Positions 6,195-58,358 of a stretch of DNA of 64,000 nucleotides are shown one piece after another. This DNA is from Acidobacteriota bacterium (GTDB taxonomy: Bacteria; Acidobacteriota; Blastocatellia; Pyrinomonadales; Pyrinomonadaceae). Location: assembly GCA_025463135.1 (NCBI GenBank), contig JAOAPY010000030.1:62001-126000 (forward strand). Direction: 5' to 3'. A program made the translations under genes and the position numbers. The notes beneath the pieces are model-generated. The model was not told the DNA's origin. It saw only the letters and a list, made by a program, of their open reading frames with translations, and searched no databases. How positions within the stretch are numbered: position 1 is the stretch's first letter; each line of letters begins with the position of its first letter.

Positions 6195-6300
6195 CCTGGG
6201 ACCGCACGCTTCCAGCGTGCTGAGGTTGCGGCGAAGAAATTGTTCGGGTCAAATAGTCTCTTGGCTGACGTCAAGCACGCTGGAAGCGTGCGGTCCCAGG
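6195..6300. repeat. Inverted-repeat element family A, copy 2
   Basis: This is a perfect 27-bp inverted repeat (6195-6221 and 6274-6300) enclosing 52 nt. It fills almost the whole spacer between the mreB stop (6192) and the polX start (6305). Confidence 0.92.
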
Positions 6301-6304
6301 GTCA

Positions 6305-14224: not shown

Positions 14225-14622
14225 GGGGAAGGCGGGAGGCGGTAGGCAGGAGGCGGAAGTTAGGAGGCAGGAGCAGGAGGCAGGAGCAGGGGGCAGACCC
14301 GTCAGTACCGCCTGCGTTGGCGGGTGGGTGGCGGTAAGACAGACAATCCGCAGATTCCACCGATTACACGGATTCAAAAAGCCAATACCGAAAACCGCAA
14401 GCCAGGAAAACAAAAACCAAAAACAAAGATCGAAGATCGAACATCAAAGATCAAAGATCAAGGTTCCAAAGTTCAAAGTTCAAAGTTCAAAGTTCAAAGA
14501 CCAAAGTTCAAAGACCAAAGACCAAAGACCAAAGACCAAGACCAAAGACCAAAGACCAAAGACCAAAGGGTACTGGTGCAGTTTGATGGAACGCTCCCGG
14601 TTCTGTAACGATGGTTTCAGCG
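14225..14622. repeat. Gene-free spacer made of heptanucleotide arrays
   Basis: 14228-14295 is an array of GGAGGCA/GGAGGCG-type 7-nt units. 14405-14575 holds successive 7-nt arrays that shift from GATCGAA and GATCAAA to GTTCAAA and then GACCAAA units. The transition units differ by single bases, as if each array evolved from its neighbour. Frames crossing it (14133-14633, 14324-14608) give KDQRPKTKDQ-like low-complexity translations and are rejected as genes. Confidence 0.85.
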
Positions 14623-18630: not shown

Positions 18631-18660
18631 CGTTGGATCTTATCCTCATGCCACGGAACA

Positions 18661-18716
18661 AAGAACAAAAACCAAAGGCCAAAGCCCAAAGGCCAAAGAC
18701 CTAAGACCAAAGAACA
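18661..18716. repeat. Heptanucleotide array (GACCAAA/GGCCAAA)n
   Basis: About eight 7-nt units of ACCAAAG, GCCAAAG and CCCAAAG type, ending just before the start of the proline-rich frame at 18725. Confidence 0.75.
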
Positions 18717-18724
18717 CTAAAACC

Positions 18725-18928
18725 ATGACCATAGAAGACATCGATCCACCGCCTCCCTCCGCGCCGCATGACCCGTCGAATCCTGATCCGGCCAATCCTC
18801 AACCGCTGCCTTTGCCGCCGGACTCCCAACCTCATCCGCCCGTGCGTGAGCCGGACGTGCCGCCCGATATTAAGCCCGAGCCGCAAGAACCCACGCGTAT
18901 TTTTGGGTTTGGCCTTTTGGAAGGCTAA
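18725..18928 (+). CDS. Small proline-rich acidic protein (hypothetical)
   Basis: A 67-residue frame reads MTIEDIDPPPPSAPHDPS... with repeated Asp/Asn-Pro and Pro-Pro units and a short C-terminal FGFGLLEG tail. Composition is unlike a random frame and resembles small Pro-rich proteins annotated in many soil bacteria, but there is no good ribosome site (the upstream is the heptamer array) and no domain. It may be a real intrinsically disordered peptide or a chance frame. Confidence 0.4.
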   Translation: MTIEDIDPPPPSAPHDPSNPDPANPQPLPLPPDSQPHPPVREPDVPPDIKPEPQEPTRIFGFGLLEG

Positions 18929-19996: not shown

Positions 19997-20028
19997 AAGA
20001 CCAAAGACCAAAGCCCAAAACCAAAATA
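19997..20028. repeat. Heptanucleotide array (GACCAAA)n
   Basis: Four to five units GACCAAA/GCCCAAA directly before the stop codon of the UbiB-like gene. Confidence 0.6.
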
Positions 20029-25405: not shown

Positions 25406-25430
25406 GAGTGCGAGGTTCGATGAGCTTTAT

Positions 25431-25533
25431 TTAGCTTGTCGTAACGCCGCGACAAACTAAATTAGCTTATCGTAACGCCGCGACAAACTAAATTAGCTTA
25501 TCGTAACGCGGCGACAAACTAAAGTTTGTCGGA
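25431..25533. repeat. Three 31-nt tandem units (family C relative)
   Basis: Units at 25431-25461, 25462-25492 and 25493-25523 differ at one or two bases (TTAGCTTRTCGTAACGCSGC...). The array ends with AGTTTGTCGGAC as in other family C copies. Each unit contains CGTAACGCCGCG and a GACAAACTAA word. The rest of the spacer to 25734 shows no gene. Confidence 0.9.
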
Positions 25534-27009: not shown

Positions 27010-27077
27010 CTTCCGCTCGTTGGCTTATTCTTATATCGTTCATTTAGCGCTATCTAAACGGGTGAGTAATCAAGGCA

Positions 27078-27110
27078 AAGATCGAAGATCGAAGACCAAA
27101 GACCAAACGT
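27078..27110. repeat. Heptanucleotide array (GATCGAA then GACCAAA)
   Basis: Two GATCGAA and two GACCAAA units in direct continuation, the same two unit types as in the 14.4-kb array. Confidence 0.7.
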
Positions 27111-27117
27111 GGATTCA

Positions 27118-27330
27118 AATGACAAGTGCAACAGGTGTCTTCGTTTCGCTCCAGAGGAGCGAGATGTTTATAGGTAAGAACGTCCGTCCAAAGATCTTCG
27201 CTCCGCCAGGAGCGAAATCTGACAGCGAAATCTTCACCGGGGCAGGCAAAAGCGATTGCGCTCCTTCGGAGCTTAGGACTAAAGAAATGACCGCCAAGCT
27301 ATAAACATCTCGCCCCTCTGGGGCTAAGCA
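27118..27330. repeat. Element family D, copy 2
   Basis: The left hairpin CGCTCC-AGA-GGAGCG plus AGATGTTTATAGG (27148-27173) is mirrored by CTATAAACATCTCG with CCCC-TCT-GGGG at 27300-27327. The interior is similar to 10615-10710. It fills the 374-nt spacer before the glycosylase stop; a plus frame at 27020-27304 through it is rejected. Confidence 0.78.
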
Positions 27331-30404: not shown

Positions 30405-32810
30405 ATGATCACTCGAGTTCAAATCCAGGTCCGGGGAATTGTTCAGGGTGTGGGGTTCCGGCCTTTTGTTTTTTCGTTGGCGCGGAAAAACTCACTCAAC
30501 GGCCGCGTTCTCAACAATGGATCCGGCGTTTTGATAGATGTCGAAGGTGAACGCGAAGCAATCGATCGCCTGCTCGTCGAGCTGAAAACAAATCCGCCGT
30601 CGCTGGCCCGCATCGAATCAATTGATGCCACGGAAATATTCGAGCGAGCGCAATATGACGACTTTCGTATTGAGGCCAGCGTTTCCAGCGAACAGAAATT
30701 CGTTCCCATCTCGCCCGATGTCGCCACTTGCGCTGATTGTGTGCGCGAACTGTTTGATCCGGATGATCGTCGCTTTCGCTACCCATTCATCAACTGCACC
30801 AACTGCGGACCACGGTTCACGATTGTCAAAGACGTTCCTTACGATCGTGAAAAGACCACGATGCGCGAGTTTGCGATGTGCGACGAGTGTCGCGCCGAAT
30901 ACGAGAATCCACTGGATCGAAGATTTCATGCCGAGCCGATTGCCTGCGCGAAGTGCGGCCCGCGCGTTTCGTTGTTTGCAGGTGCAGTTGAAGGGGCGGA
31001 CCTGAGTGTCCGCCCTCCTCCTTCCATTGGCCATGCCGCTAAAGAAAATCAGACCGCTTGCATAACGACTGGCAACGCTGCTATCTATCAGGCCGTTGCC
31101 TTGCTCAACGAGGGGAAAATCCTGGCTATCAAAGGCATCGGCGGCTTTCATTTGGCCTGTGACGCATTGAATGCAACCGCGGTGACTGAGCTCAGACGCA
31201 GAAAGTATCGCGAAGACAAACCATTCGCTTTGATGGCGCCGGATCCGGAGTTCATCAGAGAATACTGTTTGCTCTCGAGTACCGAAGCCGACCTTCTTTC
31301 ATCAGCGGCCCGACCCATTGTGCTGCTTCACGCAAAGCCTGGCGCACGCTTGCCCGATGGCGTGGCGCCGCGCGTAAGGTCACTGGGTTTCATGCTGCCG
31401 TACGCGCCGTTGCACCACCTGCTGTTTGAAAAGTTCAATCGGCCGCTGGTCATGACCAGCGCTAATATTTCCGACGAGCCGATTTGTTACGAGGATGAAG
31501 ACGCGCGCCAACGTTTGGGCCGGATTGCCGATTACTTTCTGGTGCATGATAGGCGAATTCATATGCGTATGGATGATTCGGTCGTGCGTGTGTGGGAAGA
31601 GGACGAGAGGGAAGAGATCGGTGGGACTGGAAAGCGAGTGGCAGGGAAGCGAGGCACGCTGGAAACGTGCGGTCCCAGGGTTTTGCGCCGGTCGAGGGGA
31701 TATGCGCCGGCGCCGTTGAAGACGGGAATGAAGTTTGAGAAGCAGATTCTGGCTTGCGGGGCCGAATTGAAAAATACCTTCTGCTTAGCCCGTGGAGATT
31801 CCGCTTTCATGAGTCACCACATCGGTGATCTGGAAAATCTGGAGACTCTCAGATCCTTCAGCGAAGGAATCGAGCACTACAAGCGTTTGTTCTATCTTGA
31901 ACCTGAGATCATTGCTTACGATCTTCATCCTGAATATCTTTCATCAAAGTATGCTCTGGCGCTCGACAGCGAAATAAAATTGGGAATCCAACATCACCAT
32001 GCGCACGTTGCCAGTTGCATGGCCGACAATCAAATTGATGGCGATGTCATCGGCGTAGCCATGGATGGTCTCGGGTTTGGCACGGATGGCCGGATGTGGG
32101 GCGGTGAGTTTTTGGTGGCGAACTTTGCCGTCGCCGAACGAATCTCGCACCTTGAATACATGCCGATGCCCGGCGGGGCGCGGGCGATTCGCGAGCCCTG
32201 GCGCATGGCTGCCGTCTACTTGCAACAAACTTTTGGCGACGACTTTCTAAAACTTGACCTTCCTTTTGTGAAGGAAATGGATGCTGCGGTATGGACCACT
32301 TTGAAAGGAATGATTGCTTCGCGGACTAATTGTCCAGAGACTTCCAGCATGGGCCGGCTGTTCGATGCGGTCTCCAGTTTGCTGCGCCTGCGGGACAAAA
32401 CCAACTATGAAGGTCAGGCAGCTATCGAGCTCGAGCAGATCGCCGACGTGACGAATCGAGAGAAATATGATCTTGTGGTTTCGGAAGATGGGAGTATCAT
32501 ACGGCCACAAAATGTGATTCGCAGGGCCGTAGAGGATCTGCTGAGCGGCGTTCCCCCCACAATAATCTCAGCCAGGTTTCACCTCGGAGTGGCTGATCTG
32601 ATTGCCGGCATCAGTCATAGAGTGAGAGATGAGCGGAAGCTCAATCGCGTAGTTCTCTCTGGCGGAGTCTTTCAAAATCTGTTTCTTTTGCGCGCGGCAT
32701 CAGGAATGTTAAGGGCCGCGGGCTTTGAAGTCTTCACGCATGCGAGGGTGCCGGCCAATGATGGCGGTATTTCGCTCGGACAGGTGGCGATCGCCAACGC
32801 GCGTCTCTAG
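30405..32810 (+). CDS. hypF: HypF carbamoyltransferase, with two repeat-derived insertions
   Basis: HypF converts carbamoyl phosphate and ATP to a carbamoyl adenylate and transfers the carbamoyl group to HypE, the source of the CN ligands of NiFe-hydrogenase. Domains in order: acylphosphatase (1-90, RGIVQGVGFRPF), paired zinc fingers (about 105-190, CADC, CTNC, CDEC, CAKC), YrdC-like (about 225-400, KGIGGFHLACDA, TSANISDEPI) and Kae1-like (about 430-801, HHHAHVAS, GLGFGTDGRMWGGEF, SGGVFQN). At 801 residues it is longer than usual (about 750). The extra length is two low-complexity stretches: EGADLSVRPPPS near 195-207, and a segment near 396-427 encoded partly by a family-A repeat arm (31654-31679). 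Both fall at domain junctions and the frame is kept, so activity is likely preserved. Confidence 0.95.
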   Translation: MITRVQIQVRGIVQGVGFRPFVFSLARKNSLNGRVLNNGSGVLIDVEGEREAIDRLLVELKTNPPSLARIESIDATEIFERAQYDDFRIEASVSSEQKFVPISPDVATCADCVRELFDPDDRRFRYPFINCTNCGPRFTIVKDVPYDREKTTMREFAMCDECRAEYENPLDRRFHAEPIACAKCGPRVSLFAGAVEGADLSVRPPPSIGHAAKENQTACITTGNAAIYQAVALLNEGKILAIKGIGGFHLACDALNATAVTELRRRKYREDKPFALMAPDPEFIREYCLLSSTEADLLSSAARPIVLLHAKPGARLPDGVAPRVRSLGFMLPYAPLHHLLFEKFNRPLVMTSANISDEPICYEDEDARQRLGRIADYFLVHDRRIHMRMDDSVVRVWEEDEREEIGGTGKRVAGKRGTLETCGPRVLRRSRGYAPAPLKTGMKFEKQILACGAELKNTFCLARGDSAFMSHHIGDLENLETLRSFSEGIEHYKRLFYLEPEIIAYDLHPEYLSSKYALALDSEIKLGIQHHHAHVASCMADNQIDGDVIGVAMDGLGFGTDGRMWGGEFLVANFAVAERISHLEYMPMPGGARAIREPWRMAAVYLQQTFGDDFLKLDLPFVKEMDAAVWTTLKGMIASRTNCPETSSMGRLFDAVSSLLRLRDKTNYEGQAAIELEQIADVTNREKYDLVVSEDGSIIRPQNVIRRAVEDLLSGVPPTIISARFHLGVADLIAGISHRVRDERKLNRVVLSGGVFQNLFLLRAASGMLRAAGFEVFTHARVPANDGGISLGQVAIANARL
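31654..31679. repeat. Family A repeat arm inside hypF
   Basis: GCACGCTGGAAACGTGCGGT plus CCCAGG matches the right arm of family A with one G-to-A change. It is read in frame as GTLETCGPR between the YrdC-like and Kae1-like domains. Confidence 0.85.
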
Positions 32811-58303: not shown

Positions 58304-58358
58304 GTCCGATAAGCTTCAGCTTGTCGTAACGCCGCGACAAACTAAAAGTTTGTCGGAC
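58304..58358. repeat. Inverted-repeat element family C, copy 3
   Basis: GTCCGATAAGCTTCAGCTTG...CGTAACGCCGCGACAAACTA...GTTTGTCGGAC. It contains one 31-nt unit of the kind tandemly repeated at 25431. Confidence 0.82.

Follow-up and report, generated by a model that had tools for sequence, protein, structure and literature searches.

hypF and its two extra segments

The window, which is the whole 64,000-nucleotide stretch of DNA that was analysed (G000:C15:62001-126000, from a genome of 6.48 Mb in 56 contigs), carries an intact hypF gene whose product has its closest named relatives in Pyrinomonadaceae and other Acidobacteriota (Table 1). The protein scores 761 bits against the TIGR00143 cut-off of 466, possesses the Pfam domains acylphosphatase, zf-HYPF, Sua5/YrdC and both HypF C-terminal subdomains, and shows the domain order that defines HypF, namely acylphosphatase, zinc fingers, YrdC-like and Kae1-like, with the conserved residues present. 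The paired zinc-finger cysteines (109, 112, 131, 134, 159, 162, 181 and 184) are kept and are invariant across the alignment. The AlphaFold model, built from a 60-row alignment, is a confident fold with a mean pLDDT of 91.2 and lies within 1.5 A of the full-length HypF structure 3vth; pLDDT falls below 50 over at least three residues only at 197-216 and 401-422, and these are the two extra segments.

Table 1. Features discussed in the text; bare positions are those of the window.
Feature	Position	Strand	Basis
hypF, carbamoyltransferase HypF, 801 aa, intact	30405..32810	+	TIGR00143, Pfam, AlphaFold vs 3vth
Site 1 extra segment, residues 196-216, disordered loop between zinc fingers and YrdC-like domain	30990..31052	+	Gaps in relatives; pLDDT <50
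Family-B REP copy GAAGGGGCGGACCTGAGTGTCCGCC (consensus GTAGGGGCGGACCTGTGTGTCCGCC)	30990..31014	+	59 genomic matches, control 0
Site 2 extra segment, residues 402-424, disordered tip of last YrdC beta-hairpin	31608..31676	+	Gaps in relatives; pLDDT <50
Family-A arm GCACGCTGGAAACGTGCGGTCCCAGG, 1 mismatch to consensus	about 31653-31679	+	125 genomic matches, control 0
Complete inverted family-A pair, intergenic reference copy	6195..6301	.	Arms 100% complementary over 28 nt, 52 nt apart
truB with in-frame family-A arm EQEQHAGCVRSQGL	G000:C37:21169-22113 (L263)		Pfam
ETF-QO (ETF-ubiquinone oxidoreductase) with in-frame family-A arm LGPQASGVP	G000:C24:168150-169958 (L161:8150-9958), minus strand		
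egtB-like gene (DinB + FGE) with in-frame family-B copy RADTQVRPY	L194:1141-2625, minus strand		
bchH-like (Mg-chelatase H) ORF with family-B copy	G000:C24:203129-205432, minus strand		

In the alignment, the residues gapped in at least 80% of 26 relatives are 194-195, 205-220 and 402-424. From anchor to anchor, site 1 measures 65 residues in the window's protein against 42-48 in most of 95 HypF proteins, and site 2 measures 56 against 33. In the model, site 1 is flanked by strands 188-192 and 219-222 and comes ahead of the YrdC-like domain, while site 2 forms the tip of the last YrdC-like beta-hairpin (strands 393-398 and 425-430), just before the Kae1-like domain. An earlier note, made from the letters of the window, had placed both segments at domain borders; this is right for site 1, but site 2 is a hairpin tip rather than a true inter-domain linker, and, as a further correction, EGADLSVRPPPS starts at residue 196.

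Each segment holds a dispersed repeat, at the place given in the earlier note, and preserves the reading frame, as that note had claimed. The sequence GGCGGACCTGAGTGTCCGCC is found exactly at 30995-31014, where 0.01 matches would be expected at up to three mismatches in shuffled windows, and for the family-A arm pattern the window has 6 matches where 0.00 would be expected; the copy in hypF lies on the strand opposite to that of the search pattern. When positions 30900-31750 were compared with the source genome, 36 matches besides the region itself were found, all of them at 30984-31021 or 31646-31688. The family-B copy in hypF reads GAAG in place of the GTAG tag, and both copies are recognisable as single arms only, with no inverted pair; at site 2 the possible left-arm position has only the 6 bases TGGGAC, too little to claim a complete pair. 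The internal palindromes of the two segments are not longer than those of control segments, and the evidence for these segments is copy number. Short hairpins in a draft genome could arise by chance resemblance or assembly error, but such an origin is extremely improbable here, since the matches of 25-27 bases to high-copy families stand against 0.00-0.01 expected, hypF is uninterrupted inside a 342-kb contig, and independent cases are present in other assemblies.

Of the extra residues, which number roughly 18-20 at site 1 and 23 at site 2, only about 9 in each case belong to the recognisable repeat, and the remainder of both segments has no match elsewhere in the genome. The earlier identification of the segments as repeats thus stands in so far as both contain repeat copies, but not for their full length. 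With the extra DNA roughly double the length of the repeat that can be recognised, the borders are not the precise ones that the earlier note had in mind, and neither an empty site nor a target duplication is readable at a protein identity of about 65%. The comparison with orthologues that the earlier note had suggested, under which distant HypF proteins sharing the segments by descent would count against insertion, was run, and insertion withstood it, neither segment being present in any of the 94 other HypF proteins.

Two dispersed repeat families and their copies in genes

The family-B consensus, GTAG-GGGCGGAC-CTGTGT-GTCCGCC, consists of a GTAG tag and a hairpin with 7-bp arms. Its pattern GTAGGGGCGGACCTGTGTGTCCGCC has 59 genome-wide matches at up to three mismatches, while the reversed control pattern has none, and 14 head-to-head pairs, mostly spaced 21-26 nt, were found among 45 copies examined. 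As a palindrome of 20-40 nt whose consensus has an unpaired GTAG at one end, dispersed in many copies and frequently in head-to-head dimers, family B has the features of GTAG REPs. Family A (TGGGACCGCACGCTTCCAGCGTGC) has 125 genome-wide matches under the same mismatch limit, against none for its reversed control, and often occurs in inverted pairs with 51-54 nt between arms; its consensus has neither a GTAG nor a CGTC tag and it is therefore named REP-like only. The genome encodes two RAYT genes above the NCBIfam cut-off and a third just short of it. No family-A or family-B copy lies beside them in the 3-kb Y1_Tnp loci examined, and family B is for this reason called GTAG-type and not RAYT-linked; RAYT association is not required of every REP copy or genome (PMC3733652). 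The earlier statement that these elements can move goes further than this, as no mechanism was seen.

Among 36 same-family genomes, family B has 1 match and family A has 5 diverged matches; elsewhere in the class, a B variant is abundant in one genome (G049) and diverged A forms occur in several. Because both families are nearly absent from same-family genomes, they have expanded in this lineage, and since no other HypF examined carries either segment, the repeats in hypF were gained in it. In this respect the proposal of in-frame insertion by intergenic repeats is well supported: the repeats are genome-wide, absent from the orthologues and, within the family, nearly confined to this genome. 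The window contains other repeats as well, including intergenic-looking arrays of the heptamer CAAAGAC/CAAAGTT and variants (14403-14579, 18631-18730, 19997-20025 and 27055-27120) and a 31-nt unit, TTTAGCTTGTCGTAACGCCGCGACAAACTAAA, present three times in tandem at 25430-25523 with a fourth copy 33 kb away at 58315-58346.

For the copies within genes, 862 kb of genome stretches together with 3-kb contexts were used. With the threshold of the frame test set to include both hypF copies, a coding-like open frame on both sides was found for 7 of the 100 distinct A/B copies with context, compared with 62% of random positions, and A/B copies are thus depleted in genes. Of six candidate copies inside genes, four were accepted because a Pfam hit extends across the repeat site, while a YfhO-like candidate is weak, falling below the Pfam cut-off. 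Frame preservation among these genes is partly by construction, because frame-breaking copies escape the test. Special frame-openness of the elements was also considered as an explanation; family B is stop-free in 5 of 6 frames and family A in all 6, yet 5 or more frames are open in about 61% of random 26-mers, and the property therefore explains little.

In truB, the repeat sits in a loop of variable length among relatives, where it substitutes for sequence of similar length rather than being added; in some relatives the same loop holds other repeat-like peptides, NYELR and ETQRAQS. The family-A arm of the ETF-QO gene, whose frame score is just under the threshold, lies directly before the 4Fe-4S cysteine motif NCVHCKTC. 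The egtB-like gene also has a second repeat-like stretch, DSGMGVPPM...AQDAHATAQ, at another position. The bchH-like ORF ends about half-way through the CobN/Mg-chelatase profile and, being truncated, was left out of the count of intact genes; Rieske-like and cytochrome b-like frames lie downstream, and the region is possibly a relic of phototrophy.

Recurrent insertion in the same two loops of HypF

Every gap between conserved columns of the 95 HypF proteins was ranked by how many sequences carry 8 or more extra residues in it. The most insertion-rich gap is that after residue 401, which is site 2 (16 sequences), followed by that after residue 202, which is site 1 (9 sequences), and the next has 6. 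On a tree built without those columns, which is a quick tree with several open forks, the minimum number of changes in insert presence is 7 at site 2 and 9 at site 1, and the inserts at both sites differ in sequence across lineages.

Several of these inserts are themselves repeats. At site 2, the HypF gene of L047 contains a whole inverted pair, AGAACCGCCTGCGTGAGCGGGCGG...CCGCCCGCTCACGCAGGCGGTTCT, and that of L051 a similar pair with a third copy, while site 1 of L022 contains a relative of the L047 hairpin. This hairpin has 112 matches in the genome of L047 (G060), 44 in that of L051 (G061) and 24 in that of L022 (G007), and 29 in the genome of the window. Another element occupies site 2 of L023, with 50 matches in its own genome (G027); a motif of this element is matched 15 times in the genome of L045, whose site-2 insert holds a similar stretch. 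The inverted arms in L022, L023, L047 and L051 comprise 20-30 matched bases, compared with a maximum of 10-13 in 49-57 control segments of the same genes. Site 2 of L010 contains a short heptamer array, which was seen in hypF itself. In L051 (G061:C498), six copies of one hairpin lie within about 2 kb, one at hypF site 1, three at site 2 and two just downstream. A Chloroflexota insert (L108, L094 and L099) was rejected as a dispersed repeat, as the L108 insert was found only in the hypF of relatives and nowhere else in three genomes. For the control gene leuS, no clear repeat insert was found in 30 genomes, leaving aside one 24-residue insert of a single genome; seven sequences share one conserved insertion and two have short insertions. 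As judged by these sequence comparisons, the same two HypF loops have been used repeatedly by unrelated repeats, which is the new part and goes beyond the earlier note.

The loops might have been lengthened first, by slippage or old insertions, with the repeats as late passengers copied into longer permissive loops, and both the non-repetitive half or so of each extra segment and the replacement of similar-length loop sequence in truB would fit such an order. This is quite unlikely, however, as whole inverted pairs make up most of the site-2 extra segment in L047 and L051, and the nearest relatives have the short form. True domestication, in which the added peptides were recruited to serve as functional linkers or contact surfaces and then maintained by selection, would agree with the location of the segments at or near domain borders and with the same two loops being hit in several lineages. 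It is nevertheless judged very unlikely, because the peptides are wholly different between lineages and predicted to be disordered, and most HypF proteins do without them. The term domesticated, which the earlier note had used and which implies function, is not supported: in the model, disorder is limited to these segments, and they lie at positions accepting many unrelated sequences.

Proposed explanation and comparison with known systems

The account that probably holds is that of lineage-expanded repeats, selection against genic copies, and survival in two tolerant HypF loops. Two small dispersed palindromic families, a GTAG-type REP (B) and a REP-like hairpin often present as an inverted pair (A), would have expanded; fresh copies would appear across the genome, and selection would purge nearly all of those falling within genes. 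In the HypF surface loops, namely the one separating the zinc fingers from the YrdC-like domain and the one at the last YrdC hairpin tip, extra residues would cause little harm, and it is for this reason that in-frame copies might survive there, adding disordered peptide that would later drift. The same filter acting on the relatives' own repeats would then lead to the same two loops being filled repeatedly. The added peptides are thus presumed to be nearly neutral, and the copies may have been made by RAYT-type transposition or by replication-based copying; the analysis turned up neither a clean empty site nor a target duplication nor a dedicated transposase. Since the extra DNA exceeds the recognisable repeat at both sites, part of it would be of other origin or decayed. 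That the loops act as a trap beyond tolerance, taking up in several lineages whichever repeat family is active, either because longer loops usefully modulate HypF or because loop DNA attracts insertion, is unlikely; were it so, one conserved gene would record the repeat history of each lineage.

Cases of mobile repeats turning into protein sequence have mostly been reported singly, whereas in hypF at least three unrelated repeat families, from several genera, have inserted in parallel into two defined loops. Because these insertions lie in one conserved gene, they could be used to measure the tolerance, timing and decay of repeat-derived peptides. They also call for caution in annotation, as lineage-specific HypF loops can be translated repeats rather than domains.

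Intragenic GTAG and CGTC REPs in frame within genes of known function were described by Di Nocera and colleagues in 2013, with TruB as a recurrent target and recB carrying one at nearly the same site in two species of Xanthomonas, and flexible linkers or loops were proposed as tolerant places for them (PMC3733652). As in-frame intragenic REPs, those in truB included, have already been published, the kind of event is known. A literature search covering few subscription papers yielded nothing that, by title and abstract, deals with such insertions in HypF. The Rickettsia palindromic elements (RPE), which are in-frame palindromic repeats in many, probably still functional, genes (PMC3733652), are alike in being palindromic and inserted in frame; however, their sequences are unrelated, and those of R. 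conorii have CGTC at the end (PMC3733652), whereas families A and B do not. Families A and B resemble paired REPs of the REPIN/BIME type (PMC3116915 for REPINs) in often occurring as two inverted copies with set spacing, and whole pairs are held by hypF of relatives, while they differ in that the window's hypF has only single arms and no RAYT gene is linked to A or B. The insertions resemble the REPs of PMC3733652 in that small tagged palindromes lie in frame and truB is also hit, but HypF is absent from the main text of that paper, the host here belongs to the Pyrinomonadaceae, and the same two loops of one protein are used by unrelated repeat families from several genera. What is new is families A and B, hypF as a host gene, and the recurrent use of its two loops by unrelated repeats.
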